From positions 7,173,501 through 7,237,500 of the forward strand of contig CM007989.1 of NCBI GenBank assembly GCA_002189035.1: 64,000 nt of DNA. The letters run 5' to 3'. A model generated the notes under the pieces. The model was not told where the DNA came from, searched no databases, and saw only the letters and a program-made list of their open reading frames with translations. The DNA comes from Utricularia gibba. Lineage: Eukaryota > Streptophyta > Magnoliopsida > Lamiales > Lentibulariaceae. Both the position numbers and the translations under genes were made by a program. Shown in pieces: positions 1,472 through 53,347 of the stretch (the stretch's first letter is position 1; each line of letters starts with the position of its first letter).

Positions 1472-4212
1472 ATGGGAGGTGGAGAAGGGGTGAGCGGGGG
1501 AGGGTTAGTGAATGTGAATGTTCGATCATCAAAGGGCTCTGTGTGTTTGGTAAAAACGAGCGTGGAATCGACGGTCTGGGAATTCAAATGTTTGATAGCA
1601 CAGAATTGCGATGTGCCGGCTGAACAGCAGCGCTTGATTTACATGGGTCGGATCTTGGAAGACGAACAGACTTTACTCAGCTACGGTAATCGTATTTTTT
1701 TTTGTTCTCTAGACTTCCTTTTTTTTTCGAATAATGTGGTATTTGGAATTCAACTGTAGTTTTGTGAGTACTTTCTTGCTCCTTTCTTTGGAAAGCTACC
1801 AAGTTTTTGGGAGTTTTGTGATCTGTTGAAACGGTTGAAGCTGAGATTGAGAACGTAATTGTATGGAGATTCCTATCGGGAATGTGAAGTACAATGGGAT
1901 ACAGTAGATGCTTGTTCAAAGATGGAATTTAGTTTCTCGAGGAGAGTTCATAATAGTATACTGATTCGTATAGTTTCTTGGTAAACAGGTCTGCAAGCTG
2001 ATCACACGGTTCATATGGTGCGTAGCTTTGCACCATCGTCGGCCACCGCGTCTAATCCTACACCAAGTGAAGGGAATACTATTGCTAATGTTCATGTTGC
2101 TTCGCAAGCTACTAATGCAGGTTTATCTGGTGGAGCTCTATATCTATTCCCAGGCCTCGATTTTGGTGCATTTGGTGGAGCTGGATGGTATGCATTCGTT
2201 GGAGCTGGACTTCCTGATTTCGAAGAGTTGGTACAACAGCTAATTGAGTATCTTGTGAGCAATCCTGAGATCATCCGCTGTTTAATTATGAATTACCCTC
2301 AGATACATGAGATCATTGACCGAATCCCTGAGCTTGCTCATGTCCTTAATGATCCTAGCATTCTTCAGCAAACACTAGAAGCTGCTAGTAACCCAGAAAT
2401 AATCCGTGAGATGATCAGAAACACTGAGGGGCAATGAGTAATCTTGAGTCCTCTCCGGAGGGATTTAACATGTATAGATCCATGTATGAAAATGTCCAAG
2501 AACCTTTTCTGAATGCAACTACTATGGATGGCTTCACGACTACCAGTGGAACAGATCAGTTTGCTTCTGTATCGAGAGGTCAGTTGGGATCCCAAGCCAG
2601 AGATGGTTCTGATTCTATAGCTGCTGGACGTGAAAACAACCTATATGAAATTCTGACCCAATCCCCAACCCATGGAGTAGTAATGGTATACCTAAAAGTA
2701 TCCCTGCAGTCTCATGTCCGAGTCATGTTTTTTTTTTTTTGATCTCTGCCTTTGATCCGTATTTATGGTACAAAAATTATTTGAGTTTAAATTTGCATGT
2801 GATTTTCCTAGTGAATTATTCTGTATGATCTGAATGCTCATCGGCCTGAACCTGTAGTATTGGTGAATTTCCAGTTAACATTCCATTATACTACTAGCTG
2901 TATGTTTCCGATATACTGCCTGCAATGGCTTTTTATTGGAGTGTAAATCTTTCATGCATTAACAGCTTGAATGTTTTTGGTATGTTTTTAGGGACTCCTC
3001 AATCACGCAATGCTACTAGAATCAGCTCAACCGACAACACAAGGCGTCACTCAGCTGCGGGAGTACAACCACTTGTTCTTCCTCAATTCGGCGCCAATGG
3101 AATGCTAGACACGGCTTCAGCTCGTCGGTTCTTACAAAATCCTGCTGTGTTACAGATCATGCAGACCTTGCTCCCCGGCACTGACTACATTGGTCAGGTA
3201 AGCTTCAGCTTTCGTGGATTTGGCATTTATTTTGAAGAAGGCCAATGATTACTTTATCTCAGGCTGTAGCCTGGAACCCTCAGATCCGGAATGTTCTGAC
3301 ACTGAACCCTCAATTAAGACATATTATGCAAAACCCTGAACTTCCGCACGGTTTCCCCTCCTCAGCCACTTTGGAGGTTGCATATCATATCCTTTTTTCT
3401 CAAAAGTCAAAAATAAATTTGACGCTCCGCTGGATGTTAATGTAAACCATGCTGTGCATTCATATACTTACACTTTTGTTGAATTTGTTGTCTCAGCAAG
3501 TACTAGCTTTTCAGGAAATGCTCTCTCAACTTCGCCAACCGCAGCCAAGCGTGTGAGTACAAATTGTTCTTATGTTTGTTCGAATTGCTGTTCCTTTTCT
3601 CTCTTATTTTGAATTTGAAGTTGAACCCAAATTTTGGGATCCAGTTCCAACTTTTCCCCAATGGCTTGCTTTATCAGTGATACATTCTATCACTAGCGCC
3701 ACCCATGAGCACGATCAATGTTCCCACTTCCTATTCAGTTTGTATCCCACCCAATTCTAATCCCCAAAACTGCTCTTTTCAGGGGTGGAGCTCAGGCGGA
3801 TCAAAATAGAGGTAAACCCACGCCACCCCAAGTCAAACGTGTTGTGCATGCAATCTCTCTTGATGCTCCTTCACTTTCTAAGGTACTCAAAACAGTTCTC
3901 CCAGTGTGGAGACTCTAGTGAACATGTTCGGTGCGCTTACCGCCGGTAGCCTGACCCCGCCTGATCCCAATGGTCTGCCCTGCCCTCCCTACTTCGCAAT
4001 TTCATTCAGCCTTTTCCCTTGACATGATGATCAACTAACTCCACATCCTTGTTGCCTCGGTTCCCCCTGAAGAGCTCTATGCAACGCAGCTAGAACAGCT
4101 TCAGGAGATGGGATTCTCGGATATGCAAGAGAACATGAGAGCCCTGCGTGCTACCGCCGGAATCGTCCACGCCGCAGTCGATCTGCTCTTGGGGACCCCT
4201 CATCAACAGTAG
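1472..4212 (+). pseudogene. DSK2: DSK2/ubiquilin-like ubiquitin shuttle protein, disrupted
   Basis: DSK2 proteins carry ubiquitinated cargo to the proteasome, with an N-terminal ubiquitin-like domain, central STI1 repeats and a C-terminal UBA domain. All three are visible. The UBL is encoded from 1472 (exon 1 to 1685, then 1989 onward); STI1-like NPEI/NPQ segments lie in 2200-2685, 2992-3197 and 3263-3376; a clear UBA ([16 protein letters not shown]) ends at 4212. The frame breaks at a G run at 2428-2431 (reads NTEGQ-stop before a good [11 protein letters not shown] continuation) and again at a C run at 2663-2666 before NPWSSN. Each break is mended by one extra G/C. The acceptor before the UBA exon (about 4060) also lacks an AG. 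The protein is more diverged than usual DSK2. I infer a decaying duplicate, although the two base losses alone could be sequence error. Confidence 0.75.
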
Positions 4213-4478
4213 CGCGGTGCCATCGGCAACATCTGCAACAGCTGATGCAAACCAACCAGGTTCTGCTGCTTCCCTCCCTGCAAATATATGAATCTTGTGC
4301 CACTAAAAGCCGTCCGTCTGTTTCACTGGGTGTTATGTTCATCTTCCAGCATTTAACGAAAATAGATAATAATGATAATAATAGTAGCCACTAATTTATT
4401 AAAGAGTATTCATTTCGGAGACTGTAACACTGCTCCTGACCAACTTATAACACGATTATAAACATCTTGTGATCTTGT

Positions 4479-4727
4479 CTAGGCGGCGCAGGTGGCGCAC
4501 GCGCAGCCGGAGGCGCACCGGCAGGCCCCTTCCGCTTCCGCGCCCTTTTCACAGGTGCATGGGTTGCAGCTGCAGTGTTGGCCGCAGGAGCACACCATAT
4601 GCTCCACCTCCACCGCGCCGCCTTCACCACCGCCCTTTGAGCACTGGCACGCGGCTCCGCCGGGGCACGGTGTGGGACAGCCGCACCGGTCATCGCAGAC
4701 CTCCAGTCTCCCTTTCGGTTCCGCCAT
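4479..4727 (-). CDS. MT4: Type 4 (Ec-type, seed) metallothionein
   Basis: This 82-residue Cys-rich protein starts at [17 protein letters not shown]. It has three cysteine clusters separated by Cys-poor spacers, the signature of plant type 4 (Ec) metallothioneins, which bind zinc mainly in developing embryos. The clusters are [11 protein letters not shown], then [15 protein letters not shown], then [13 protein letters not shown] at the C-terminus. I chose the start at 4727 because the upstream in-frame residues resemble nothing conserved. It appears to be a single exon. A TATA-like element, a G-box/ABRE and an RY repeat lie 35-130 bases upstream, fitting ABA- and seed-regulated expression. The gene is convergent with the DSK2-like gene, whose stop lies 267 bases away. 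Confidence 0.88.
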
Positions 4728-4761
4728 GGAAGCCTGAAAAGCTGAACATTCCCTGTCTGCG

Positions 4762-4852
4762 TACATATTTAACGGCCGTAGGCGAATCCACGGAAGATGA
4801 CACGTGGCAGACGCGGCGTACACTTGTCATCTGCTCCACCTCTTCATGCATG
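4762..4852 (-). promoter_or_regulatory. Seed/ABA-type promoter of the metallothionein (TATA, ABRE/G-box, RY)
   Basis: Reading upstream from the minus-strand start at 4727: a TATA-like TTAAATATGTA at 4772-4762, a G-box/ABRE core CACGTG at 4801-4806 in the context GCCACGTGTC, and a palindromic RY repeat CATGCATG at 4845-4852. A further CATGCA lies near 5170. ABRE plus RY is the classic bZIP/ABI5 plus B3 (ABI3/FUS3) combination in seed-maturation promoters. Confidence 0.7.
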
Positions 4853-4863
4853 GAGGCGGTGGA

Positions 4864-4887
4864 TATCTATCTATCTATCTATCTATC
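4864..4887. repeat. TATC microsatellite, six units
   Basis: Six perfect TATC units, just upstream of the RY element of the metallothionein promoter. Confidence 0.95.
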
Positions 4888-6067
4888 AGTCTATCTGATA
4901 AAGTGCAAAAGGGGGGAAATAAAAATAATTAGGGATTTGTTTCCATCTAAAAACTGGCCACGTTTCATTTATCAGGATGGAGTGCGACGCATGACACCGA
5001 ACCGTGGCTTTCGTTGCGGCAAAGAATTAAATCTGGAGAGTTACTTTTTTTCTTTCCTGGTAGGCGGTAAAAGAGAGAGAGAAAGTCAGTCACACTGCAG
5101 TTGTTGTTGTGGGTTGTGGGGCTGCCGGCGGCCATCTCCATTTAAGGGTATGAAGGCAGAGAGGGGGGTGCATGCACCCGACCTCAACGTGCACTCCAAA
5201 TCAAATATTGAATGTGTGTTGGAGATATTTTGGATATTTGTGGGGCAGGAAACCAGAGAGTAATCAACGCTGGTCCCCCCCCCCCCCCCTCCGGGCTGCC
5301 CAGTTACGCCGTTTGCTGGAAAGGTGTCCGCCACTTCCATCATACTCCCTGTTTGGTGTTGAATCCAAGATTCCAAAATTATAAAAGAATATAGTCGAGT
5401 CCATGACTGTTAAATATGGTATGAACGGTTTTTTTTGAATTGTCGGTTTATGAATTGTGATTTACTGTTGATTTCAATTTAAAATCAGAATTTTAAACCT
5501 TAAACCGAACATGAACTGAAACTCTATAGTTTTTTAGGAATTAATTTTCAAATACCCACATGAAAATGCTTACAAAATGCATCATTTTTTTCAAAGATTT
5601 TTCTAGTTCTCGTAACAATTATTCATAATATCTAAAAATGATTATGAAAATAAAAAATATTTTTTAGATATTCGCATGAACCATTAAGAGTGTCTATAAA
5701 ATGTATCATTATTTTAAATGTTTTTTCAAACCTTCATAATATCTATTAATGATATTTGGAACCATAAAAAATGAGTTCCGCATTGATAGGAACCACATAT
5801 TTTTCAGTTTCAAATATCTCAAACCTTCATAATATCTCTTACTCACCTTCTATATATTATTCGAGATAAAAGAATTTAAAATAGTTTTTACTTTTGAAAA
5901 TATTTTAAAATAGTAGCGGCTTATACGTTTTTAAAAAATAGATTTTTCAAAATATGGAGGGAGAAGGTTTTAAAAATGGATTATTTTACGTGAAAAAAAT
6001 AGTAAGTAGGACGGGAAAAAAATGCATTTATGTAGAAAGAAAAATGGAGCGTCTCTTGGAGGTTCGT
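4888..6067. other. Intergenic region between metallothionein and EXL5-like gene
   Basis: No gene is supported. It contains a run of 15 C at 5275-5289 and, from 5400 to 5940, an AT-rich stretch in which CATAATATCT and its context recur near 5628, 5738 and 5828, suggesting a degraded internal repeat. A 264-codon plus-strand ORF over 4469-5263 is the antisense shadow of the metallothionein plus noncoding sequence. Confidence 0.5.
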
Positions 6068-8129: not shown

Positions 8130-10815
<2,686 letters not shown>

Positions 10816-11284
10816 TCACACTGAGAATGCACCAGGTAGACGGCAGACTCCCCTGCAGTGTTTCTTTCTTGTTCCTCTGGAAGCTCCCTGACCAGTTGCT
10901 TCTTGTAGTTTCATCCATGGAGTGAGTTATGAACTCACTGCACTTTTCTGGGATCTCAGAAATTTCCTTTGCAAGAAAGAAAAAAGGATGGAAGATTCAG
11001 GTTTATTACGATCAGCAGTTGCAGAGGGTGGAAGGTTTCATCTTTATGGTGCTTAGTTCATCTGGGGTTGTGCTTCCCCTCTTTTGAGAGGTTTTACTTT
11101 TAACTGTAGAAGCAGGCAGTAAAAAAAATTCCCAGAATGAGCATGACAAGTGTTTCACAGCAATCTTCACATACACGAATAGGTAGATGATGACGATCTT
11201 GTAACAGAGTTTCAACAAATATAAAAATGAAGAAATAATTTAATACTTTGTATGTATTCATGTTTGGTACGCGCTGATACCAGA
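10816..11284. other. Convergent 3' region of CPK and small unknown gene
   Basis: This holds the 3' UTR of the kinase gene and the 3' flank of the minus-strand gene at 11285. I see no further gene. Confidence 0.5.
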
Positions 11285-12547: not shown

Positions 12548-15500
12548 ATGTCTCCTGGAGATTGTGGTGAGTGTAAGTAAGATTAATTTTGCTTTCCTCA
12601 GACTTAATTGGGATGATTTTGCGCTACTAGATCTGAAGGTTGAACTACGTGTCATGAATCAAAGTATGGGTTCCTGGTAGATTTCGAAATCTTCAATGAG
12701 AAATACCGTGGAAGTTTGATTGCATTCAACGTTGCTGTAGGTGAGTTAATTGTTAGTTTGGGGCTTGTTTTCAGGGGCGTACGAGGAAAATAGTGGTTCG
12801 AACTCCAGTTCTCCTTCTGATTCTAGTCAAGAAACACGTGATGTTCAGGGTGAGATGCTTCCGGTCTTTTTCAAACTCGAAGACATCAGTAACAAAGTTA
12901 GGGTGAGTGGATGGTGTTGACGCACTTCTATTTGTGGACCATTTTTTCTGGTATTTTGAAGGTAACCTTCGTTTTCCTCCAGCTTCTTAGAAAGGAACAT
13001 GAGAATTTATGCAGTGAAATCAAAGGTGTAACACTTGATTCTTTGATCGGTTCTGAATGCTCCACTGCCCTATATGATATTTGTGAGTAATCTCTATTAA
13101 AAAGATCTTTAATAGATGCATGGATTGTGTTTCAGTTTGTGATCGCTTCACTTTTGCTGTGTTCTAGCCAAGAAATACGTTGCGGATTCAGAGTTACTGA
13201 AGAAGAAGTTCCTTGAAGAATGCACAGAAAGAAAGAAACTCTACAACAAAGTGATTGAGCTCAGAGGGAATATTAGGGTCTTCTGTCGGTGTAGACCAAT
13301 GAAAGAAGATGAGATTACCAATGGTTCCACGTCAGTCATCGACTTTGACGCATTCCAGGAAAATGAGCTGAACGTCATCTGTTCTGATTCTTCCCGAAAG
13401 CATTTTAAGTTTGATCATGTATTCAAGCCTGAGGACAGCCAAGGTAGAATGGGTGCAAATTCTTCAATTTTTTCTGTCATTTCATGTTTTTATTATTTGT
13501 GGCAATGCTAAATGATTTCACTATATTGTTTTCCAGATGATGTCTTTGGTCAAACTCTGCCGTTGGTGACCTCTGTCTTGGATGGCTATAATGTGTGCAT
13601 ATTTGCTTATGGGCAAACTGGTACTGGAAAAACTTACACAATGGAAGGAACACCAGAAAATAGGGGGTAAATTACCGCACTCTCGAAGCGCTCTTCAAAA
13701 TATCTGAAGAGAGAAGCAAATTTGTGAGATATGAGCTGTTTGTCAGTATGCTAGAGGTCTACAATGAAAAGATTCGAGATCTTCTGGTAGACAGCTCCAA
13801 ACATCCGGAAAAAAAGTAGGCTTCTATTTCTGATTGCCCTTTGTATCCTTTAAGTCGTTGTTGGTGAGCTATTTTTCTTATAAGAAAAATGTTGATGCCT
13901 CCTATAAAATGCAGGCTGGAGATAAAGCAGTCAGCTGAGGGTACCCAGGAAGTACCTGGACTTATTGAAGCACGAGCTTATACCACAAGTGATGTTTGGA
14001 GTTTACTACAATCAGGAAGTCACGCAAGATCTGTCGGTTCAACTAATGCAAATGAACTCAGCAGCCGCTCTCACTGGTGAGTGTGAGGATATTCTGCTGC
14101 CCAGATACTTTACTCAGGTTATTCAAGGTTACCTATCACTGTCGGTACTGTGTATAAAACTCCTTACTCCTCCCACCTGCAGCTTGTTAAGAGTGACTGT
14201 TGTTGGGGAAAATCTGCTTAATGGGCAAAGAACGAAAAGCCATTTGTGGTTGGTCGACTTGGCGGGAAGTGAGCGTGTAGGAAAGATTGAAGTTGAGGGT
14301 GAAAGGCTGAGGGAATCTCAGTTCATTAATAAGTCGTTATCAGCTCTTGGAGACGTGGTTTCTGCCCTTGCATCGAAATCATCTCATGTACCATACAGGA
14401 ATTCCAAGCTTACTCATCTACTCCAAAGTTCGCTGGGTGAGTCCTGTGTCATTATTTATTCTCATTGTAGCTAGACAACAAAATGAGATGTAAAATGAAA
14501 CTCGTTTGCAGGTGGTGACTGTAAGACTCTCATGTTTGTTCAAATCAGCCCCAGCTTAGCTGATCTTGGAGAAACTCTTTGCTCCTTGAATTTTGCAAGC
14601 CGCGTTCGAGGAGTTGAACATGGACCTGCTCGACGGCACCCAGATCAACATTCCGAACTCCTTAAATACAAGCAGTTGGTATGAAGCGAAATTCTCGTCG
14701 TTGTGAACCATTCATTCGCCTGCTGGATTTCATTCTTGAATGTCTTGATTGTAGGCTGAAAAAGCAAAACAAGAGGAGAAAGAAACGAAAAAGTTGCAAG
14801 AAAATGCTCAGTCTTTGCAGCTGAGACTTGCTGCTAGGGAACAAATTTGCAAAAACCTTCAAGAGAAGGTACTTCAGTGCGAATTAGTTAGTGAAATGAT
14901 TTCAATTTCTTATACCCTCCTGTTCATCATCATTATTATTGTTATCTATCAGGTGCGTGATCTCGAAAACCAGTTGGAGAACGAAAGGAAAGCAAGAATG
15001 CATCAGGAGAACAGAGCTCTGGCCGCAATCTCTACTCAACCGAAATCCATACCAATGCCAAACATGTCAATGGACAAGAAGCCACCGCTAGGACCATCAA
15101 AAGCGAGGCTTCCCCTCAGAAGAATCTCAAACTTCATGTCACTTCCTTCTCCTGCTGCAGCAAAGAAAACCCGGATGCCGTTCCTCCCTTCTGTAAGTGA
15201 AGGGAAGGAGAACGCCTCATCAAGACCAAAGCTCACCATCACAGCAAGAAGAGGATCGATTGCAGTAAGGCCAGCTACGACAAAAACCTCTCAGGTGGCT
15301 ATTCAGCCTAAAAGAAGAGCCTCCATTGCAACCCTGCAGCCAGGTTTAGCAACTCCACTTTACAGCTCAAGGCCTCAACGGAATGTAGGCAGGCAATCTT
15401 TTGTTTGGGATCCACAGAGAGTTTGGAGAACCTCCAGGTTATCTTCACCCAAGATGATCGAAGCAACCCCGCTTGGCGGCTCAATCAAGTTCAGAGAAAG

Positions 15501-15621: not shown

Positions 15622-16936
15622 TATTTCCTATCTCTGATGTTGTCCCTCCTCCTCTTTCATTGGCATTACTTTCTCAACTCTGGGAACACACTTGAATTCA
15701 GTGCTAATGTTGTCTGCTATGATGGAGAAATGGATCTTCGCACTTTCTTGCAATCACCGGAGACTTTGAGCCGTACAGATTCCGATGATGAGGTGCGGGA
15801 GATGGATTCGGAAAGCACACCGACTTTCTTCTCCTACTTGCAGCTGAAGAATCTCCAAATTTGGACCAATTTTGTCAAATTCCAAACTCTACTCGAAACG
15901 CGTGTCACTCGGACAACTTTAGAAATTAACGAATTAAATAAAATCGGATTTAATTCATTTTCCATTTAATTATAACTTTGTTTATAATGGATCAAATCAG
16001 TTTCCACTTATTATTTTTACAATTAAAAATGATTCTAAAAAATACCAAGTTTCAATTTTGGACGGTCCCACACGTGTGTTGACCTCAGTATTCAAAGTTT
16101 TCGGTCATCTCGCCTAACTTTCTGGTTGTGTCTGTGTGTCGTTTCAGTTGTCGGGATTTTATTTACTTGGTCGTTGGTCTGAATCCAGTCTTGTCCTGGC
16201 ATTTGATTCCTTGTTATCGAACAATGCCAATGCCAATGCCCCACAAAACATCAGCCATCACTTCATACCATACAGCTATCTTCTTGGAATATTTGCCCAT
16301 CCACAGTGAAGTTTGCGCAAGCTGGGAGAGGATGCTGGCGTGTGTGTGTGAACTTTTTGGCAGCTGGAAGCAGCGAGGAGTAGGGACGGGTCGCGTCAAC
16401 CCAGACTCAAGTGCTGTCGGTGTGACCACGAGACTTTAAAGCCAGGGCGCTAGGACTTGGAGAAGAATCCAAATAACGAAGAAAAGAAAAAACCCAAATA
16501 CGGAGAGACAGAAAGCGAGAGAGAGAGACAGAAATATCATAATAATTATCAACGAATCAAAGCAAAGGTGTGACCGTTGCTGGTGTGAAGATAGAATTTC
16601 CAAGTATGTGTATTGTGTACATTGGCTCATTCCAGCCAGAAATAATGTGTTTGTTTGTGAACATCAATTACCCAGACTTCCAAGTACGTGTATTGTCATA
16701 GCAGCTGGTTGTAGTTTCTGGTTAGAGAGTGGGAAATAGAGGAACACTGGGGTTTCCTGGTTCACACATTTGACCATGTAAACTGCCATCTTCTTCATTT
16801 GGAACAGCAAAAAGACCAAGACCGAAGATCCTGTCTAATACCAAGACTCGTGCCTATAAAAACCCCTCTTGTTCATCCATTTTCATAGCATCAACTACAA
16901 AAAAAGAGTTTCCTTTTTTGCTGTGTAATCAGAAGA
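15622..16936. other. 3' flank of KIN-14 and upstream region of small gene
   Basis: The first 350 bases are probably kinesin 3' UTR. They include an open stretch (about 15730-15860) reading DLRTFLQSPETLSRTDSDDEV in another frame, which I cannot place. Towards the right, TTCCAAGTATGTGTATTGT at about 16599 recurs as TTCCAAGTACGTGTATTGT at about 16678. A TATAAAA lies at 16855-16861, 76 bases before the small ORF at 16937. Confidence 0.45.
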
Positions 16937-17113
16937 ATGGATGGACCAAGGAGAAACGGCAGCAGCAGCAGCAGCAGTTCAGGGAGCAAAGGAAGCGTTT
17001 TTCCTAAAAAGCAGGACAAGGTGATCACAATGGTGGTCAAGAACATCGCCAAGGGGGCCTCCGATGCTTGTTCCAAACCAAAAAACAATGGCAGGGTGTC
17101 CAACCACCCGTAG
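16937..17113 (+). CDS. Tiny poly-serine protein, tandem paralogue 1
   Basis: A 58-residue ORF, MDGPRRNGS followed by a serine run encoded by AGC repeats, then GSKGSVFPKKQDKVITMVVK, NIAKGASDAC and a short basic tail. The core from GSKGSVFP to IAKG..SDA is nearly identical to the ORF at 19014, and so is its DNA (about 47 bases around GTGATCACAATGGTGGTC differ at only a few positions). A TATAAAA box lies 76 bases upstream. There is no signal peptide or transmembrane segment; the core could form one amphipathic helix. I do not recognise the family. The shared, mostly synonymous-tolerant core between two copies argues that it is a real gene despite its size. Confidence 0.6.
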   Translation: MDGPRRNGSSSSSSSGSKGSVFPKKQDKVITMVVKNIAKGASDACSKPKNNGRVSNHP

Positions 17114-19013
17114 CAGCGTCCTGCGGGAATGGATTGGTGTAGAAGACGTCTGCTGTGGTTGTTCATATGAGTTCTCATCAGGTTCTTTTCAGTATAGAAA
17201 ACGTGTGATACTTGTAACCCTCTTCTTACTACTACTAAGGCTGCCTATGTGTGGTTTGTCCATTTAAATTTTCATGAGTTTAAATTATTTGGGTTTAGAC
17301 AAATCCAAATATATAGATATACCTATATCATTACAATCCCTTGTGCATACATGAGAATATAATTATACTAAATAATCATTATAGTCGTATAATTAGTATA
17401 ATTATAACTACATATCAAATAACGTAATTTATTAAATCTACTATAAACCAACCTTATAATTTCGTATTAAACAAGACTTAAGTTAAAAAGTTAAATTGTT
17501 GAATAGAATCTTGGCATCTGCTACAAACCCTAAATCTCATTAAATAAAAAACTCACTATAAAGGTTTTCAAAACACATCCAAGTCAACCTGTCGGGTTAT
17601 ATTTCTTGAAAATAGCTTTTCGATAATATTATTGAAAAGTAAAATTTTTTTTAATATTTTTATTATTTTAGCAAACAACAAAACCAATATATAATTGGAT
17701 TTTCATTATTTTCGATTTCAAAGTTAGATATGGGGTGGAAGCACGTCATCAAGTCTTATCTTGAATGAGATCCCAAAACATAGAATAAGAAGGATTCAAT
17801 GCCACAAAGCTCAAATAATAATATTATATTATTAAAAGAGAAGAATATTCCAAGTCAGCGTAGAGTCAAGATTCGTCAAAACTTTCGACTGTGAAGAATA
17901 AACCGACTTTGGACACGTATACAGAAAAAAAGAAAAAAAAGAAGAAATCGACTTCAATTTCTGATTTGAAAGAGAGTAGTGGGTACGTTATATAACTTTA
18001 ATTTATTAAAATGATTTTATTATAAGGATTTCAAATTATATTTATTATTTAGTAAAATAAAAAATTCAAAATCTTAAATAAATATTGTATTGATTCCAAA
18101 TTATATTATTTAATTTCTAAATATTTATTTTATTAATATAATCTTAAAATTGATTTTTTATTCATGATATAATACACATACATAAGGACAAGGATCTTCA
18201 AGGTTTTACATGTTGAAATTATTGCAATTTCTTATTGGATTTTTTTTTCATTTTCTTTGGTGAAATTGTTTCTTGGTAGTTTTTTATTATTATTATTATT
18301 TCGAGCCATTTATTGTTTTGGAAGTTGAATTGGTCTTAGTGTGGTTCTAGGGTATGAGACATAGTAAAATATACATGAATAGTACATGTAAATATAATAA
18401 ATAATAGTAAAATATACAATTTATTAATATTTCTCTTTTTCCTATATATAAAAACACTCAATTAACCCTAATCTACTCTACCTCATACTATAAAACTCAA
18501 TTTTTCAATAATATAATTTAGGAAAATTTTATTATATAATAAATAAATATTATTATTAAAAAATACGATACTTATCCTAAAATAGTATATTTTATAACTC
18601 GAGATAACCCGTATTCCATATCCACATATTAACGTGTTTTCATGTACTGTACTTGTACTCTTCCTTGGTGAAGGGCTGGAGAAGATGCTTGAGGATGAAG
18701 CTAAAGAAGAGCCAGCAATGCATTCATTATTTCCTGGTCTACTCCAAACAATGACTGACTTTGAACTTTGCGTGGGGGATCAGAGATATTCCTTCCTCGC
18801 CCTCCTCCTCACCTCCCACACACAGACCAGACTGCATGCTTCTTTGACCAGGGAATAAAAACACCCCCACCCACCGCTGCTCTGCAACGGAACCTTGGAA
18901 CAGCAGCGGGATGTCTGAGTGAAGAAGAAGATTGTAGTGCTTGTTCCTCTTCCCTCTCCCTCCTATAAAAGGCTCTGCGCCTGCTCTCGCCTTCTCAGAC
19001 CTGACAGACAGAA
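17114..19013. other. AT-rich spacer between the two tiny paralogues
   Basis: No gene is supported. Most of it (17270-18600) is very AT-rich. The last 350 bases are more balanced and end in a TATAAAA at 18964-18970, 44 bases before the second small ORF, so this end is its promoter and leader. Confidence 0.5.
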
Positions 19014-19271
19014 ATGGAGGCACCACCCAGCAGCAGCAGCAGCAGCGCGGGGAGCAAGGGAAGCGTCTTCCCCAAGGAGAGGGAGAAGGTGATCACAATG
19101 GTGGTCAAGAACATCGCCAAGGGGGTCTCCGACGCCTACTCCGAGCACAAGAACAAGGGGAAGGTGACCCAGAACAGCCCTGATTCGGTTCGCCTTCTTC
19201 GCAAAATAACTTCATCTGGAGTGGAGCAGGCGACTGCCCCATTTAGCAGTGATCATAATGGTCCATGTTAG
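19014..19271 (+). CDS. Small poly-serine protein, tandem paralogue 2
   Basis: An 85-residue [23 protein letters not shown], then KEREKVITMVVKNIAKGVSD, AYSEHKNKGKV and a variable tail ending SSDHNGPC. It shares its Ser run and GSKGSVFP-VITMVVKNIAKG core with the 58-residue ORF 2 kb upstream, but its tail is longer because the reading frames diverge after the core. A TATAAAA lies 44 bases upstream. It has no known domain, and I assign no function. An intron after NKGKVTQ or a shorter true product cannot be excluded. Confidence 0.6.
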   Translation: MEAPPSSSSSSAGSKGSVFPKEREKVITMVVKNIAKGVSDAYSEHKNKGKVTQNSPDSVRLLRKITSSGVEQATAPFSSDHNGPC

Positions 19272-20655
19272 GAATTAGGATCTTCTCATCCAAACCCTTT
19301 TTGTTTCTAGGAAAACATTTAATAATCAAATTTATTACTAAATATGGACCATTTTTATTTTTAAGAAATTATAAAGTCTCATCTTTCAGAATTAATTCTT
19401 GAACATTGCTCTTTTAAGAAGATATATTAAACAAAACCCTAGATTTTTCGAAAAAGATTAAATGGAATAAACCATACATATGAGATATTTCTATATTACA
19501 TTTTAGTTGCCTTATATCCCACAAAGTCTATCCAATCTGATAAAAAGAGGTGAATAACATGTTGCAGAATTTATATGATGGTAAAATGATCATTTAAAAT
19601 TATATATATATGGTATCCATTTTTCTCATATGCTTAAAAAACAGTGTCTACTTTTATAATACAGCATACATCACCAATTTGCTCGTCCACAACAAAATGT
19701 AAGAGTGGAACGAAAACACAAATACTTAGTTGAAGTGACAAAGGGGTTCTTGCCACATACAGTTTGGGGAGGCAATATTAGCAGCGACATAGATTATCAT
19801 ACTGATGAATACAGTTTCAGAAGGTGAAGGCATGAGGGTGTTTGGTTACTTTTCCGGCGGATATTGAATGTTTTACTATCTCTGTTCGGTCGGAGCCACT
19901 GACGGCCCTCGCTCAACGATCACTCCTCCCTCAGTACGCTGTCGCAATTTTCCAATTTTGTTTGTAAAATGCGCGCTGCTTGAGTGGATAGAGAGATTAG
20001 GGTTCATTTGATGAACAATTTCTACTTATTCCTGGTAGGGGATGTATTTAAATAGATAAACCTCTTCAATTTAGTATGGGAACTTTTTATTGAAAGAAAA
20101 AAATATAAAATTATGAGGATTGAATGTTCGAAATAGACAATATAATGTAATGTGAACGTAAGGCGTGACATTTTTTATATTAGATCTAAATTCATACTTA
20201 TGCCATGTGGAATAAGATGACATTGGGTGTTTAAAAAGGATAGACTATAAAGTTAAGTATGTTGTTATGATATATCACATTAGTTACGGATAGTGGAGAA
20301 GATGTAATTAAATAGAGAAGTTATTCTAACTTTACATGAAATTTTTTTCTAAAAAAAATGTAAAATTATAAGAATTGGATTGTTAGCTCATGACAACTTC
20401 TAGTTAGATTTCCCTACTTGGTTTCAAAAAACTGAAAAAAATGCCTTCTTTTTAAGGTTGCCATAGCAGCAGTAGGGAGTCCTGGGTGGGCTTGTTGTGT
20501 CGATCCAATTCTGTTGCTTTATCCAAAGATGTGAAAAGAACACAGACGTGGCTTGATATCAATGAAGGAACTTTGCATGGGTGCAACGTGTAACTACAGC
20601 CAGGGTCCTTTAAGAAGTTGCTCCCATGTTTCACTCTTACGCAGCTTAGCATCAA
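19272..20655. other. AT-rich intergenic region
   Basis: No coding region or RNA gene is visible. The right end is the promoter and leader of the GPI-anchored protein gene. Nothing else can be supported. Confidence 0.5.
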
Positions 20656-21289
20656 ATGGAGTTCGCCGGAGCACGATCAGCCCTCGTTCTGGTTATCATC
20701 TTCCAGTTGTTGGCTCACCCCGTCGTCTCCGATGGTAAATTCTGTGTCTTTGAATCCTTGTCTTAGTGCCGTCAAATGAATGATTGCTTCCCTGTTGTAA
20801 ACAGATGAAGAAGACCATCTGCTCCAAGGGCTCAACAGTTTCCGGCAATCGGCAAACGTCCCCGCCCTGTCGAAACACGCCAAGGCGAACTGCATTGCGG
20901 ATGAAATCGCCGACGATTTCGAGGACCAAAGATGCAATTCTTCATCAGTCGGGGCGAGGACGGAGCCGCTGGCGAACCATCCCAACGCCCTTCGGAAGTG
21001 CAATGTCGACGCCAGCACCACTGGGGGCGCCGTCGTGCTCCCCGTCTGCGTTCTGGATCGGGTCGCCACCCTCGTCCTCACCAACTACACGCAGTCCGCA
21101 AACTCACGCTATTTGAATGACTCGAGGTTCACCGGAGCCGGAATAGGAACGGACGACGACTGGACCGTCCTCGTCTTGACGACGAGCACACCGGGTGGCA
21201 GCCTCGCCGGCTCCGGCGGCTCCACCATCGCCACGTCCGCCGGATTCACGGCCCTCTTGATGTTGATCGTGCTATGGAGCTTGATGTAA
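20656..21289 (+). CDS. GPI-anchored cell-surface protein (At5g19230/At3g06035-like)
   Basis: Two exons, 20656-20734 and 20805-21289, encode 187 residues. The N-terminal hydrophobic segment (GARSALVLVIIFQLLA) is a signal peptide. The C-terminus (small residues GSGGSTIATSAG, then FTALLMLIVLWSLM) is a typical GPI-attachment signal, so the mature protein should sit on the outer face of the plasma membrane. The middle has DEEDHLLQGLNSFRQSANVP, paired cysteines (NCIADEIAD, QRCNSSS, LRKCNVD, LPVCVLD) and NYT and NDS glycosylation sites. This matches a plant family annotated only as uncharacterised GPI-anchored proteins. The coding part is GC-rich compared with its AT-rich flanks. Its molecular role is unknown. 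Confidence 0.83.
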
Positions 21290-21954: not shown

Positions 21955-23211
21955 TCACACACAAAAAAACCCACTCAGAAAGTGTACATTGCGATAAATA
22001 CAAGTAAATGGAGATTCAGACACAGTAAATTCACTCATTACCGTGTTCTCCTTGGGCCTGATCTCCATCCCCTGGATAACCAGGCCTCTTTTCCAGTTCC
22101 CTCCTTCCACCTCCTGAAACACCATCTCCAAGTCTCCATATTCATCATTTCCAACAAAGTGTTCTCCCAACTCAACCTCCATCCACCCGTCATCTCTCCT
22201 ACGTGGTCTCTGAATCCTGGTGTTGTTCGGCCGCCGCCCCATTGGTGTCAAATAGAAGAGACGTTTGGGGGACTCCTGGCCGTTGACAAGCAGGTGGCCT
22301 TTGGTGGGGTTCCGACGGCCAAATCCGTCAGCGGAGGGGGATGTGGTAAAGACCAGGTAAACAGCGTAGTTTGTGGAAGGTGAGAGCATGGTGAGACTGA
22401 TCCTCCCCTTTATTTCCAGCCAGCAAACATTCCGGAGCTCTGCTACCTCCGGGAACCTGAATCAAAATGATTGCCATAAGTACGGAAACCATGAACACTT
22501 GTTAGTTTGCCAAGAGGGTGGAATGACGAATACCTAGAGGCTGATGTTGAGTTCCATTGCCAGTATTGTGGAGTATCCCCCAGCAGATGTAGAGTTGATA
22601 TCATAAAGCACTTCTTTCCACTTGCCTTCTCCAGGGAAAAGCTCTGTCCGCAAAAGGAAAACAGGACACGCCATGACAGAAAGGTGAGACTTTGCTCAAT
22701 ATCTACATCATGATCAACACATCAGTGCCACTTCAAAGCTAGAAGTCAAAATTCCAAAACCAAAGGAACTTTTACACGGAATGCTTTGCATAGTCCATAA
22801 AGTTCCTTTAGAAAGAATCTAGATGGTTCAAATCATTCGGGCCAACGTGGATCTTGATATTGAAATGATAACGAAAAATTCAATTAGGGAAAAAATTCAA
22901 TTAGGGCTCCATACATTGCGTCCAGCGTCGAGGAGGACAGGGTGATCACATATATGAAGATAAAGATCCTTTTTCTTCCTCGACTCGAAACGTTCCATAA
23001 GCGACGCGTCGTCGGCGCGGGAAAGGATTCGACGATAATCCGGTGGGAGGAAGCGCTCCCAAACGCCGTCCGACTTGGCGGCGTCGCGGAACGTGGAGTC
23101 AACCGCCGATAAGCGGCACGCATCTTTGGGAGTCGTGAGCGGCAAGACTTCGGCCCACACGTCCTTCGGGAGCAGTTCGCCGGACGCCGTTGAGCTCGTA
23201 TTGGAACCCAT
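21955..23211 (-). pseudogene. F-box/phloem protein 2 (PP2-B) gene, copy A, disrupted
   Basis: PP2-B proteins join an N-terminal F-box, which docks to SKP1 of an SCF ubiquitin ligase, to a C-terminal PP2 lectin-like domain. Exons 22915-23211, 22533-22643 and 21955-22456 give the F-box (LPKDVWAEVLPLTTPKDACR, ..VWERFLPPDY), then SFSLEKASGKKCFM, then the PP2 part (VCWLEIKGRISLTML, GWMEVELGEHFVG, LEMVFQEVEGGNW). Compared with copy B, exon 2 lacks eight bases after ATATCA. It also has an extra G in TACTGGGCAATGG (22559-22561), so the reading frame ends at CTC TAG at the exon border. The C-terminus also runs about 27 residues past the usual EIRPKE end. With several independent changes, this copy is probably a pseudogene, or it makes an F-box-only product of about 135 residues. 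Confidence 0.72.
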
Positions 23212-23555: not shown

Positions 23556-25118
23556 TCACGTCTTCTTCTCCTTGGGTCTGATCTCAATGCCCTCCACCAC
23601 AAGGCCTCTTTTCCAGTTCCCTCCTTCCACCTCCTGCAACACCATCTCCAAGTCTCCATATTCATCATTTCCAACAAAGTGTTCTCCCAACTCAACTTCC
23701 ATCCATCCGTCGTCCCTCTTCCTTGGTTTCCCAACGTTGTTCTCAGTGTCATCCTCTGTGTTGGGCTCAACGTGGCGCAGGTGGCGGAGGATGGGATGCC
23801 GGTACCTGTGAATCCTGCCGATGCTTGCCCTCCTCTCCTCAGGGTTCAGACACAAGAGGCGTTTCTCGCTGTCCTGGTTGTTGGCGAAGAGGTAGCCTTC
23901 GGCGGGGCGGAGGCCGAAGCCGTGGGCGTCGGAAGCGGTTTGGAAGATGAGGTATGCACCGTAGTTTGTGGAAGGTGACAGCATGCTGAGACTGATCTTT
24001 CCCTTTATTTCGAGCCAGCAGACGTCTAGAAGCTCTGCTACCTCAGAAAACCTGAATTAGAGGATGGGGATAAGCAATGGAATGGCATGGACTTTGTACT
24101 TGAGCAAGAGGGATGGAATCATTGCGTACCGAGACTCTGCACTTGAGTTCCATCGCCAGTATTGTGGAGTATCCCCCAGCAGATGTAGAGTTCTCTTGCT
24201 GATAACATGAAGCATTTTTTTCCACTTGTTTTCTCTAGGGAAAACGTCTGTTCACAAAAGAGGGCAGTCAAACTGAGATATTGTCAATAACGTGAGGATG
24301 AATAAGCCAAGTCCCCTCCCTCATCTAATAAAATGATTCTTCGCAGATGGAATGGTCAAGAAGCAGAATCATTTCCAACACAACTCTTTGCTTTTGGCTA
24401 ACAAATCATATCACACATAAGACAACAACACTTCCCCAACGCAATGAAATGAACACTATGAAATCAGAATACCAAACATGTCAATGAATTTAATGGGGGT
24501 TTGTATCACTTTACAGATTAACTTTTTTTGCTTCTCGAAAGGAAAAATCAAAACCACTTTCCGGTTTTATTAGTGAGTTTTTTTTCCTAACCAGAACTAG
24601 GTTTAATCATATCATCATCAAAATCCATTTTGTGTTTAAAAAAAGTTGAAGAGTAAAGTGTAGGCGCAGCTTCAAACGAACGAAACTGAAAGCTAAGGGG
24701 AATCTAGAATCCATAAAGTACATTTAGGAAAAATCTAGATATTTCCGTCCATACACAAAATCCTAGGGGCAACTTAAATCGAGATAATTCAAATTAAGCA
24801 ACACAATGAACAAGTTGCTGGAAAAAAAAATCGTACCATTCGTCCAGAATCGAGAAGAACAGAGTGGTCACAGAGATGAAGATAAAGATCCTTCCTCGAC
24901 TGGAACCGTTCAACAAACGATCCGTCATCGGCCGCGCGTGATAGGATCTCGCGATAATCCCCTGGGAGGAACCGCTCCCAAACGCTGTCCGCTTGAGAGG
25001 CGTCGCGGAACGTGGAGGCCACCACGGATAATCGACAGGCGTCTTTGGGGCTCGTGAGCGACAGCGCGTTGGCCCAAACGCCCTCCGGCAACACGTCTCC
25101 ATATTTCTCTACCGCCAT
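23556..25118 (-). CDS. F-box/phloem protein 2 (PP2-B) gene, copy B (one frameshift)
   Basis: Three exons: 24837-25118, 24130-24247 and 23556-24051. The F-box is near the N-terminus (MAVEKYGDVLPEGVWANALS, TSPKDACRL, FRDASQADSVWERFLPGDY), with TFSLEKTSGKKCFML following, then the PP2 domain (QYWRW, EVAELLDVCWLEIKGKI, GAYLIFQTA, GWMEVELGEHFVGNDEYGDL) and the typical end GIEIRPKEKKT. Exon 2 breaks frame at the C run 24173-24177 (a G run on the coding strand, in CWG-DTPQYW); one added base gives 298 residues with consistent intron phases. I start at 25118; an upstream in-frame Met at 25172 is less like the family. It is likely a functional substrate adaptor of an SCF ligase that binds N-glycans or other ligands. 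The 3' exon is very close to copy A. Confidence 0.83.
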
Positions 25119-30962: not shown

Positions 30963-31050
30963 TGAGGCGATGTGCATCCTTTTTTTTTCGCAGGGAAAGG
31001 TCTGGTTTCAGTTTTCAGACTTCCGAAGCTTGGTTTGTACAGAGACGCTT

Positions 31051-44101: not shown

Positions 44102-47100
44102 TCATTTCCAGAGATAACGAAGGGAAGGCAAGCATGTAGCAAGCTGCTTACAGTTTTCATGGCCGTGGATTGATGACTGTTCAGTGGAAATCATCATCCT
44201 CCCCAACTTATTTTTGATATCTGTACTACGTATATTATGTACAGTGGTCAGTGGACTGTCCATCCCGGCGTCCCCTCTAGTATTTACAGTCTGCATAACT
44301 GGGGTATCTTTAGTGCTATTTACATGGCTCCCCAGGCTTGGCCAGTTTTCATCAGTACTATTGTCCAATGCGCCGTTTAAACAACCATTGGAAGTGGAGC
44401 TGACTGAACTGGAACTGCTGCAGCCTTGGGAAAGCTTGTTGATTCCGGAGATGAAGCCTAGTCTGTTAGGCTGAAATTGTTCGTTGAGTTTGCTGTGTGT
44501 GACAGGGACCCTGAACACAAGAAAAACGGTTTAGCTTGGAACGCAGTTAGACACTAAACACATCCGATCATATCCACAGTACAGACAAAAATTGAGTAAA
44601 CTTAATTTAAACGATGTAGATAGCCACTGTGGCTGCTGTCTTTGTGCATTCTTTAGTTCACATAAAACCAGCACAGGTTTCAAAAAAAAAAAAAAAAGTG
44701 AGAAGCATATTCAGAACAACGCCAATAAATCAAGTGTATGCATACGAGGAAAACACAACAATTTCTTTGCAGTTGTTGTTGTGAACATACCTCCCCTGCT
44801 GAAACTTTGATGTATGTAGACAATTGTAAACTGGAATCAATTCTTTTGACCTTGCTTCTAACGTACGGATGGGGAACTTTTCAATTTCAAGTTCTCCCCT
44901 GAATAAGCTTCTTCATCTTCATCAGAGCCACTAGTCAGCAACAACTGAAAGTATACCTACCAGGAACCCAACAAGCGTGAGATGCAAAATTCTTGGTGAT
45001 AAGTAGAACTATTTCAATTTCCTAATCATAACGAAGTACCTCTGATCTTAACCAAAGGGGATTAGTGTTTTGATGCATTTGAAGTTCAGCTTCAGATATA
45101 TGCATATTATATTTTTCTTCAGTGATGATCTTTTCTTCAGAAGTTAAATCAAAGTTGGAGGATGAGTGATTCTCATTTTCCTTGCTTGAAGAATATACTC
45201 TTCCGTTAACACAAATACCATCCTCTTCATACATGTCCAGGTTACCAACACCTTGATCCTTGCGTGTCTGCTTCTGGAAAATATTCCATTTTTGCAGTGC
45301 CTCTACCATCGATTTTCCATCACAACTGAGACTTGGCTCATTGTCAATATTAACTCCTGGAGAGATCATCTTACCATCACAAGAAGCAAAATGCAATACA
45401 TATTGCATCAAACATCCAGGTGTCGAAAAAACAAGAAGATAGTAGTTCCTCTTCAAGGAATTAATGTCATTTTGCAACTCATTGCCTTTGCACTTGTGAA
45501 ACACTGATGCAATTGCCCCAGAAAAAGAGTTTAAACGCCCTGCTGTAGCTGCAGCGGCGCTACTCACACTGCTTATCCATCCATCACTTCCATTTCTTAT
45601 TCGGCTAACAGCTGGAAGGGTGATTGGTGAACTGGACTCACATAAATTTTGCGGGGTTAGCAACTGCAGCCCAGAATTCGATGGCCTGTGGATAGCAGGC
45701 TTTCCCACAGTGCAAGGTCCACTGCCTCTACAGTCAAGAGAATCATCAGCAAACTGAAAACTAGCCATTCCACCTGATGGACAAATGGCAAAAAGGTGGC
45801 TTGTTCCTCTGGAGGTACTCACCATAATCCATTGGCTATCACTACTAAAACTTATGTCTTGTATCACCTGTGGAAGCAATTTGAAAAATATCAGAATGAA
45901 ACATTGTAAAAAATGCGAGTCAGTAAACAATAATCAGTAGCCTTACAGCATCTGTAAAACCCCGTTGTAGACTATAAAGATGGATATGAGACGGTCCTGA
46001 AGTTCCAGTGGAGTTAGACAGCCCTGGCATTATCCGGAAGACATTTATATTATGACCTTTAACTGAGGCTGTGACTAAAAGCATCCCGCTTGGATCAAAG
46101 CATAATGCTGAAATAGGACTTGAATGTGCTTTAAATTGTGCAACCACACTTTTGTTTATGATGTCCCTGACAATGACCTGAAAATCGAAGTAGAAACATC
46201 AGAGGGTCAATAAAACATGAAACCATCAAGACAAACCTAGCAGAGCGACAATCAGGAATACTAAGGATACCATGCACTTAGACAAGCTGCATACAAATAT
46301 GTGATAATGATAAATATAGATACCATGCCCACATTGTCTGCATCTGCAGGATGCCCACTGGAGACTCCATTTATCTTAGTAACCGACGTTCCAGAAAGAA
46401 CATCCTTGCCATCAGGCAAAAGACCAGAACAGTATCTCAAGAACTTCTTGCATCCCATATCACCTAAAGTAGCAATTCCAGCTGCTATCTGCTTGCTGGT
46501 CTCTTTTGCATAATGAGCAACAAGGCTACCATTTGACATTGAAGAAGGGAAACTGCATGAAGAGGTGGGGTGCTGCGGATTAACACGGCCTGAATTTGTC
46601 ATAGCAACCAAACTTCCACTGTATGCCATCCAACGAGGTCCCACTGCAAGTGGCCCTAATCCCATATTCAAAGGTCCGTAACATCCAGGGGTTACAGTAT
46701 TTGTAAGGATTGTATACTCTCTTTCCAGTGTAGCAGCATTCAGACAATGAATCTGTAAAGATTGCGTAAGGACAACAATAAATAATGAAACATACCATGA
46801 GAGTCATATTGTAAGTTTATAACTGAAATCAATCATACCTGTGTCGATTGCAAAACACAGACAATGCGGCTGCTAGAACGTACTAAATGTACAGCTGATC
46901 TAAATCTCAAAATATGTATGTAAGACTGGGACTTTAATGAATAAAACCAAACTACAGTCGGCACATGACTCCCGTTGATTGACAGATTATAGGGCCGCAC
47001 GGAACCATTGTAAGGAGCAACAATCCCTTCCTGAGGACGATGAGTATCTTCAGAAACAGATACGTCTGCACAGATAATCAACAAAGGTCGACTATCTGCA

Positions 47101-47883
47101 AACTTGTCCTCAGATCTGGCAGAAGTCAAGGGTGCTGGTTGCATTTGCATGAAGGAAACAGCACAATCCTGCCTTGTGGCTAGCTTACAAACTTTGTCTG
47201 CTGCTTCGACATCCCAGACCTGAAACCCATGGCTGAACCCAAGCAAGAGAACCTGCCTTGTCACACCTTTTTCCAGTTCTAGTTTGTCGAACCCAGCCCA
47301 CAAAACCTTCAAATTTGGAAATAGAGAACATAAAAATAGTAACTAGGAGGCACCAAATGCATGAAAATCTGCGTTTCATATCAAATTAACAGTAAAAGCA
47401 TAAAGGCACTGATTAAATCCCGCGTCCCGTGACATTTGCTATCAGTTGCACAGTACATATTCAGTTTCAAAACTTTACAGAACACAAACAACTTAAGACT
47501 GGCACAAAATATTGCATACAATAATACAGGTGGATTCAAAATTAATAGAGACATTATTTTGCTATAGTAACTGAATAAAAAATACAGCAAACTAGAGGTG
47601 CAAATACGAAAAACAGGCTAGCTCAAAGTTACACAAGCAATGCATAATTATTCTTTCATTGTTTCACCTGATCATGATGAGTTTCCACATCTCTCTCCAT
47701 AACAGCTGAAGCTGCAGATGCAGCAGACCGCATGGTAGAAGCAACGGATGACGCACCTGAGGAAACTATCCTCGAAAGTGTCTTGAAAGAGTGCGGAATA
47801 AGCCCCGTATTAATTCGGCTAGACCGAGCCACCAAAGCTCGGTCACCGCTTTTCTGGCCATCATTCCTCATTCCCATGGCCAA
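44102..47883 (-). CDS. ATG18F: ATG18f/g/h-type WD40 autophagy protein with BCAS3 domain (one frameshift)
   Basis: ATG18 proteins are WD40 propellers that bind PI3P during autophagosome formation; plant f/g/h members carry a long BCAS3-like C-terminus. Seven exons: 47668-47883, 46839-47306, 46324-46752, 45947-46177, 45040-45867, 44791-44956 and 44102-44510. The propeller begins at VLWAGFDKLELE and includes LLLGFSHGFQVWDVE and AQFKAHSSPISALCFDPSG, then TASVKGHNINVFRIMP. The usual FRRG motif region here reads RGFTDAVIQDISFSSDSQW. In exon 6 the frame breaks at the C run 44896-44899 (SG-GELEIEKFP); one added base gives 915 residues and in-phase exon 7. The start could be the Met at 47877. The sequence resembles ATG18h as much as ATG18f; position after GAUT12 favours f. 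Confidence 0.87.
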
Positions 47884-49046
47884 GGAAGGTGCAAATTATT
47901 CCGCACCAAAAGCGCACACTGCAACCGCTTCTTATCTCCTTCACCACATTAATTAACATAACATCCACCAAACTATTGTTTCTACGGTATCTACAATTCA
48001 ATAACCCCAGCTAATCTGCCTCTGGTTCCATTTGTAATCATCCAAAGTTCAAACTTTAGCAAAGCAAACCTTCAAATTATGCACGTTCGCCACCGGTCAA
48101 GAAACCCATGAGCTCACGAAAGAATCCCAAACCGAAAGAAACAATACCCCTTCGGTGGGTTATCAAACGATAGGGAAAAAATTCCAGAAAAAAATAACCC
48201 CTTTTGTTTGTATATCACCTCGTGGGCTGAATCTCGATCAGCAGCCACCTCTACTTTATCAGCGAAACAACTGCTGACTAATCCAAGAAAAAGAATTTAC
48301 CGAAGCTAATAATCATACATTAACAGGAGCATGTACAGATTGAATCAAGAATCGAAGGGTTAGAGATTTGGAGTTCTGAATGCTAGATAGTCAAACATGA
48401 GAAGCGCCTAATTGGGCTGAAAGAGAGAACGAAGAGAAGACGGAGAGGTAAGGCATATACCGGTGATTGCGGACGAAGAAATGTAGAACAAAAACATTAC
48501 ACCATCCCACTACCTCCCCTCGATCACGACTCTCCCCCCGAATTTTCTCCAGTCTTTCTCCTTTATGAAACCCCACGAGTCGTCCACTACCACACGTCTT
48601 CCTTTACGCCGCCGTCAAAACCCAGTTTTCACCGTGGCCGGTAACGGTGAAACATGAGCCAGCCAGAATCCCCAGTGGAGTTCTGTACACGTGGGCTGAG
48701 CGAAGAGGAACGCGAGTAGGTGGAGAATAGGAGAGATGTTTCGTATGGATTTGATCGTGCGGCGGGCAGTGGAGGAGCACGGGAGGATATGGACCCGAGA
48801 AGCACGTGATAACTTTTTGTCATCACCCTGGGGGTATCCGATGAGAATCTGCAGGGCATCTTCGCATTTCCCTTCGAATGTCTCGCCGATTGCAATGACA
48901 ATGCAATCCCTTTTCCAGGTGGTATTGCGGAGTTTGCAGGCCCGGCCTCGGATCAGTGTTTCCGGTGCCATCGCCGGAGATTCCTTCGGAAATTGTTAAA
49001 ACGAAGACTGCATAACGCAGCGACGCAAAATGGAAGGAGAAATTTG
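47884..49046. other. Upstream region of ATG18f-like gene and uncertain ORFs
   Basis: 47884-48570 is the promoter and leader of the ATG18f-like gene. A minus ORF of 118 codons at 48615-48971 (MAPETLIRGRACKLRNTTWK) resembles no family I know. It may be the tail of the disrupted gene at 49047-49560 read in another frame, or chance. Confidence 0.35.
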
Positions 49047-49560
49047 TTACCGCGACCCCGGTGGGCACGCACCTGTCTTCAACGCAATCTTCTTCGTCTT
49101 CTTCTTCGGTGTCCCACCGGAGGCTTCCACCGTGACATTTCCGCCGACCGCAACTCTACAGCGTTTGACGTGAAACGAAGCATCCGGAAAGGCTTGGCGG
49201 GCATTCAGTAGCCTGGAGCTGTTATCGAAGTAGAAGCAAGTGAGATTTGCGGCGGCGTAGTCGACGAGGCGGCGCTTGCTGCTGTTCCTTTGACCTGGAG
49301 ATCGAAGACTGTGGAGTGGTTGCTTTTTTCGTTGAAGGATCGGAGTCAGTGAGGGCAGAGACGTCGAATTGATTGATTGAGAAATGGAGATCCGAAGTAC
49401 GAAGGCTGAGGCCCAATATCTGGGCGATGAGGCCACTACGAAGTATGAGGAAGAAGCAGGACCTGCAACAGCAACCACAACCGGCGTCACCGCCCTCCGC
49501 CGCGTCATCACGAAAGGTATAGTTTGCGTGACTAGTGTTGCCTGTGCATTGTATTAACAA
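49047..49560 (-). pseudogene. Possible LEA_2/NDR1-like membrane protein, frame-disrupted
   Basis: Three overlapping minus-strand frames together resemble an LEA_2 (NDR1/HIN1-like) protein. A Cys-rich hydrophobic segment (CGCCCRSCFFLIL) leads into LHFSINQFDVSALTDS in one frame. SFNEKSNHSTVFDLQVKG follows in a second, and DYAAANLTCFYFDNSSRLL, FPDASFHVKRCRVAVGGNV in a third. LEA_2 proteins have this order: membrane anchor, then a beta-rich domain with FDL and NLTFYYFD-like motifs. Each switch could be mended by one extra G near short G runs, but I cannot prove it. It may be a pseudogene or a real gene with sequence errors. Confidence 0.38.
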
Positions 49561-49744
49561 ATATCAAAGTTCACATTTTGAATCAAACCCATGACTTGAA
49601 AATTTAGATGGCAGGTGGGTAAGTTCAGACCAACAAAGAAGTACCCGGGGCACTACAAATAGAGTACTCTGCCTAGGAAGAGCTTATAACGATGAGTAAT
49701 AATCTCAAAGTATCACCATACGCGCCCTTAATGAGACAGGATGG

Positions 49745-51031
49745 TTACTCATCGTCTTTGTAGGGATACTCCTCCGGACTTGTTTCAGTAACTTCACCTG
49801 CAACTCGAATACATCGTCCCCTCTAAGCATGTCACGCAGCCATGTGACCTCCGTTTTCATGGAAACCTGATGTTCAAACACGAACTTGGATTAGAATGGT
49901 GGATTAAACTGGTTGAGGGAGGGATATGGAAGATGTCTCACCATTTCAAGTGCTCCTCTGATGACTCCACTTAGAATGTTGCAGTAATGAAGGCCTTGGC
50001 AAATATCAGGGAGCTCCACAAAATCTACAAGAGGATTGTCCTCCAGAATGAGGCTGCAGGTTGTGCCCTCAGCATCCCAGTTTGTCACAGATGCTGTCAC
50101 TCCAAGGAACAACTTGAATCCCACCTAGCATTAACATGAGGATACTAGATTCAATTTTGATTCAAAAGATAAAGTGACTCGCAATATTATGATGAACTTG
50201 AGCATCATGATTCTGGGTCTAATTCATCAACAAAACAAAGCATACTCATAAAGATTGCATCCATGACCTGTGAGGATGGATTCATTTCTTTTCTGCAACC
50301 ACTCTATAGGCGAGTAGATGAGATGATCGACACACACACTGAATGGAATTGTTTCTTTGATGCAATTTAATCCATACGCAAACGGCTAGAGTAACAGAGG
50401 GCAGAAGTTCATTTCTATGCAGGAACTTAGTTATTCATTTTCAGGGCTAATAGTGATCAGCATAACATTAAAATAGCAATTTACTGTGCAAAATTCAAAC
50501 AAATAAATTCATTCAAGAGTAAAAGAAAAACACACTGATACAACGAGTAATAAATACCGTGTACATATACCTTGGCAATGACTTCAGCAGTTTCTCTAAA
50601 ATCAACACATCTGGAGACATTAGATTTAGCTAGAAACTCGTCCACTAACCGGATACCGATATTATAACCCCTGAAACAAGACATTAATCAACGGATAAAA
50701 AAACCAACTTTACAAAACCAAAGAAAAACACCCAAAAGAGCAACTGAGTACATTTGGTCTAGCTGCTTATTAACCTCCTCCACCTCCTCTAGATCCGTCA
50801 GGAGCTGGCGTACCATTGCACCGTAGGTAAGTGTAAACAACTCCGCATTCTACGAAATCGAAACCAAATATTACACAATTACCCGACCAGATCCATCAAA
50901 TCTTCAATAAAAATTGGGGAAAACGAAAAGAAAACAAATATATTAGCCGACTTTTAGTTCTATACACTACTTACCACGCGATCAACACTGGCGAAAATTG
51001 CATCCCCGGACTTAGGAGCTGCGGGAGCCAT
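49745..51031 (-). CDS. BET3: TRAPP complex subunit TRAPPC3/BET3 (frameshift in last exon)
   Basis: A core subunit of the TRAPP tethering complex and Rab-GEF in ER-Golgi traffic. Five exons: 50975-51031, 50752-50849, 50571-50670, 49942-50124 and 49745-49866. MAPAAPKSGDAIFASVDRV starts it, followed by ELFTLTYGAMVRQLL, GYNIGIRLVDEFLAKSN, CVDFRETAEVIAKVGFKLFL, and LPDICQGLHYCNILSGVIRG, which carries the Cys of the hydrophobic channel that is palmitoylated in Bet3. The expected end is KLLKQVPEEYPYKDDE-stop at 49745. The present sequence lacks one C after GTC at 49776-49777, so the frame runs on to an unrelated tail stopping near 49672. With one C added the protein is 186 residues, as in other plants. 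Confidence 0.9.

Positions 51032-51759: not shown

Positions 51760-53347
<1,588 letters not shown>

Follow-up and report, generated by a model that had tools for sequence, protein, structure and literature searches.

The stretch of DNA analysed here (the window, 64 kb in full) corresponds to C1:7173501-7237500 of the Utricularia gibba assembly, which was examined across 100.1 Mb in 516 contigs. It carries a DSK2/ubiquilin-like copy, a calcium-dependent protein kinase (CPK) gene, a KIN-14 kinesin motor exon, two tandem PP2-B copies, an ATG18f/BCAS3-type gene, the last exon of TRAPPC3/BET3, and a polyubiquitin gene. Smaller features are present as well. A small cysteine-rich ORF on the minus strand (4440-4728) resembles plant metallothionein, and two related small ORFs (16936-17115 and 19014-19275) both contain GSKGSVFPK and KVITMVVKNIAKG. 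A run of 15 Cs is retained in noncoding DNA at 5275-5289, indicating that a long C run can escape collapse in this assembly. A sequence-only reading of the window had listed seven single-base losses in these genes. Three-frame translation of the break regions revealed clean -1 changes without an intron at five of the seven, exactly where they had been placed, in CPK, KIN-14, PP2-B copy B, ATG18f, and TRAPPC3.

The CPK gene (8130-10815, plus strand) consists of seven exons (8130-8840, 9090-9233, 9306-9458, 9659-9774, 9855-10022, 10335-10559, and 10693-10815), and all of its introns are GT/AG. As assembled, the frame reaches a stop after 186 aa. The break lies at 8625-8628 (plus strand), where the G run is one G short: the window reads GGGG, whereas both of the closest homeologues (C3 and C414) read GGGGG. 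As had been proposed from the sequence alone, addition of one base and joining of the exons restores a protein, which is 546 aa long, has a complete Pkinase domain, and carries four EF hands. Neither relaxed constraint nor further lesions were found when the region past the break was compared with the closest homeologues, and dN/dS is 0.07 over 415-431 codons. CPK is the sole site in the window at which close homeologues pin the lost base as a G or C.

The remaining clean breaks allow more than one reading of the missing base. In KIN-14, the break lies at GGGGG (13663-13667, plus strand) and the homeologue reads AGAGGAGTG, such that the lost base may have been a G (G6 to G5) or, equally well, another base. 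The GGGGG is followed by the splice-site-like GTAAAT, and we considered a mini-intron at this position, but rejected it as the coding sequence runs on directly behind. In ATG18f, the break lies at a coding GGGG (44896-44899, minus strand) and the homeologue on C255 has GGTGG, so that either a G or a T may be missing. The dN/dS of ATG18f is 0.41 before the break and 1.1 after it, the latter value being a weak test of constraint over 113 poorly conserved codons. The TRAPPC3 break, at a coding CC (49776-49777, minus strand), fits CCC, and the restored C-terminus aligned across the break to solved TRAPPC3 chains. The identity of a lost base is ambiguous without a close relative because a wobble base lost between Gs (GG[N]GG) also lengthens the run. 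We therefore do not take a remaining run as proof of a G or C loss everywhere, given that the ATG18f and KIN-14 homeologues allow other bases. The original statement that the losses always fall in G/C runs is accordingly too strong; the five clean breaks fit such runs, but the lost base is ambiguous in ATG18f and KIN-14, and neither break in DSK2 arose by loss from a run.

The tandem PP2-B copies require separate consideration. The break in copy B lies at a coding GGGGG within W-G-D-T-P (24173-24177, minus strand) and fits a G6 to G5 change. The same five-G run is common to both tandem copies (window 22500-22720 and 24100-24300), and copy A (22575-22600, minus strand) combines it with an 8-bp deletion, a pairing that had escaped the sequence-only reading. 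The five-G run may thus represent one inherited loss common to both copies, because copy A carries these five Gs too and owes its open frame solely to the 8-bp deletion; one PP2-B copy may really be broken. Confidence in an assembly error is greatest at CPK, good at KIN-14 and TRAPPC3, moderate at ATG18f, and low at PP2-B copy B.

The DSK2/ubiquilin-like copy does not belong with these cases. The -1 break at 2428-2431 (plus strand) had been taken for a G-run loss, but the DSK2 paralogues have GACAGGGCA at this position and the best single-base repair inserts an A or C rather than a G. The second break had been ascribed to loss from a C run at 2663-2666; the frame instead changes near 2650, at a 13-bp deletion relative to both paralogues (2643-2666, plus strand), and the C runs are comparable in length. 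The window copy has accumulated 12 private changes in 55 residues, whereas the two paralogues differ by 3, and its dN/dS is approximately 0.3. Its lesions are not of the run-error type, and the copy is a fast-evolving one, truly diverging or decaying, and apart from any assembly-error cases.

Frame breaks were sought across the assembly as adjoining exon-wise protein-family matches in which the frame changed with no intron between, and further ones were drawn from homeologous regions. For family-search matches (HSP70, P450, CesA, and EF), the short pieces around the frame breaks were examined rather than full loci. For each of 17 breaks, all one-base insertions that best matched a related protein were tabulated, and the same question was asked of random single-base deletions simulated in approximately 30 kb of homology-supported coding DNA. 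Kin breaks, such as two in one HSP70 gene, were each entered separately in this count, and for PP2-B and TRAPPC3 the joined frames of the window itself served as reference proteins. On C151, the EFL1 break was scored against a presumed EFL1 family sequence, and a human EFL1 chain matched weakly (E 0.74). Among the EF-family matches, four with equal scores are closely spaced on C1 (2666923, 2668764, 2673808, and 2677149), for which recent amplification or assembly duplication is possible.

All 17 classified breaks are -1 changes, and apparent +1 changes were seen only in visibly decayed copies. A G/C run of at least 3 bases fits 14 of the 17, compared with 11.6% among the simulated deletions (p ~4e-11), and a run of at least 4 bases fits 11, compared with 3.3% expected by random deletion. 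When only the breaks outside the window are considered, 9 of 11 fit a G/C run of at least 3 bases (p ~2e-7). This bias holds despite the wobble ambiguity because the test scored all best-fit insertions. Runs of at least 4 bases in coding DNA number 382 for A/T and 155 for G/C, and an A/T run of this length fits one break only. A/T runs are thus more than twice as common in coding DNA, and therefore the preference for G/C is not due to opportunity. The off-pattern breaks comprise two of the 17 that lie outside runs and one that fits a T run; the CesA break on C244 is a change from T4 to T3. About five run-type breaks were seen in 35 kb of HSP70 matches, and the 64-kb window contains five clean -1 breaks. 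New clean breaks were also sought in the match tables for P450, kinase, and tubulin, and none appeared, the P450 and kinase tables consisting of the best-scoring candidates listed and thus giving no error rate.

The same signature separates near-identical copies within the assembly. Over 2400 bp, C251 and C244 exhibit 0 substitutions and one difference, a coding TCGGGGAGC versus TCGGGAGC. The four-G copy of this LRR kinase (C244) is intact and encodes 579 aa, whereas the three-G copy (C251) is broken and encodes 455 aa. A pair on C317 was chosen for unequal open frames (663 versus 439 aa) at equal domain score; its members are identical over 455 bp but for CCCCC versus CCCC, and the copy with the shorter run is the broken one. 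A third pair (C377 and C321) is identical across 2301 bp. These internal pairs show that such differences exist in the assembly; they do not prove the individual window sites, and the pairs may in principle be very recent true duplicates with a true slip.

Polyubiquitin provides a further case. The window copy (52202-53326, plus strand) has five intact repeats and serves as an in-genome control for its broken homeologue on C255 (C255:2235001-2275000, local positions about 17735-18929). All repeats of the C255 homeologue encode perfect ubiquitin, yet the gene contains two frame breaks, in repeats 1 and 5, both at the same C-run motif ATCCCCCC. The change in repeat 5 is an unambiguous C6 to C5. 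A -1-only, G/C-biased signature is present genome-wide, and also between otherwise identical copies.

It could be argued that the breaks are true and mark young pseudogenes formed by fractionation after whole-genome duplication, as truly decaying copies do exist in this genome. Besides the DSK2 copy, the TRAPPC3 homeologue on C255 (joined region ~20240-20680) has a diverged end as well as -1 and +1 changes that lie away from G/C runs, and looks truly decayed. An alpha-tubulin relic (C1:5059600-5059940) contains in-frame stops and a frame change. An HSP70 copy found on two contigs (C241:17740-17850 and C304:2236210-2236330) has a one-base loss outside any run that is identical in both. We considered a G-run loss at this HSP70 copy and rejected it, as comparison with the intact tandem paralogue identifies the missing base as a T in each of the two contigs; the loss is probably a true mutation, which its sharing by two contigs would suit. 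However, the true relics (the TRAPPC3 homeologue, alpha-tubulin, and HSP70) have multiple stops or indels away from G/C runs, and such mixed lesions, often accompanied by stops or further damage, differ from the run-type breaks. The latter are single, occur in constrained genes, including a polyubiquitin that still encodes perfect ubiquitin, and separate copies with 0 substitutions. Pseudogene formation is therefore a very unlikely explanation for the clean breaks.

A germline bias toward single-base deletion in G/C runs, caused for instance by oxidative damage, would match the observed -1, G/C-run spectrum. Deletion-biased repair has been suggested for Lentibulariaceae (PMC11688529), and oxidative damage has been suggested for bladderworts whose cytochrome c oxidase is altered. 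If true, such a bias would act fast enough for near-identical duplicates to be split by it and for numerous expressed genes to lose their frame. However, HSP70, polyubiquitin, and kinases would be hit without visible relaxation, two copies would have to be left without any substitution, and A/T-run and multi-base deletions would be predicted as well. We regard a germline origin as highly improbable. Programmed ribosomal frameshifting or transcriptional slippage at G/C runs, by which the frame of the product would be restored, has in its favor that the runs sit exactly where the frame changes. The affected genes are nevertheless unrelated and share no common motif beyond the run, and their relatives elsewhere in this genome have one base more and an unbroken frame. 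The sequence-only reading had already considered slippage the weaker option, and on these grounds we agree, granting it almost no probability.

We conclude with high confidence that the clean breaks at CPK, KIN-14, TRAPPC3, and ATG18f, and probably that in PP2-B copy B, are incompletely corrected long-read consensus errors, with DSK2 standing separate. The earlier proposal, that the breaks stem from a systematic error and not from the separate death of several genes, is thus well supported in that the signature is genome-wide, affects essential genes, and distinguishes identical copies; it fails for DSK2, and PP2-B could be decided either way. This distinction matters since the U. gibba assembly underpins claims of gene loss and genome shrinkage for a plant famed for its small genome. 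Pseudogene counts, truncated proteins, and the deletion bias derived from the assembly could be inflated. Such errors may be filtered as -1 changes in a G/C run with no other lesion and an intact homeologue, and redundant contigs within an assembly can reveal run errors without reads. The truncated DCL3 of U. gibba was considered as a casualty of such errors and set aside, as its authors confirmed the missing domain via transcripts and RACE.

With regard to mechanism, the long-read consensus step would call G/C runs of approximately 3-7 bases one base short, the shortened run would break the frame of an intact gene, and the undercalled runs would be left uncorrected by short reads. We infer that PacBio sequencing with HGAP/Quiver is the source of the error. 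According to a review, U. gibba was assembled with HGAP, which polishes with Quiver, and the contig N50 is 3.4 Mb (PMC5793159). The Quiver-polished azuki bean assembly contained 38,889 deletion conflicts versus 8,611 insertion conflicts, mostly in homopolymers; all 91 of 91 Sanger-checked indels were assembly errors, which would have disrupted more than 1,000 genes if left in place (PMC4663752). In E. faecium, 561 single-base homopolymer deletions were left after three rounds of Quiver (PMC4888979). In the Xanthomonas tal genes, Quiver was reported to be weak at a nine-G run, and a false frameshift resulted (PMC4853030).

The U. gibba breaks resemble those of the azuki bean and E. faecium Quiver assemblies in that deletions of one base are far more frequent than insertions, cluster in homopolymers of more than three bases, and disrupt many intact frames. 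Those two reports concern homopolymers in general, whereas G/C runs are favored over the commoner A/T runs in U. gibba, a preference that neither of them describes. The nature of the proof differs as well, as Illumina and Sanger sequencing were used in azuki bean and E. faecium, whereas duplicate copies inside the assembly serve this purpose here. The Xanthomonas tal case is similar in that a G run, an error at the consensus stage, and a false frameshift occur together, although that run spans nine bases and the runs in U. gibba span about three to seven.
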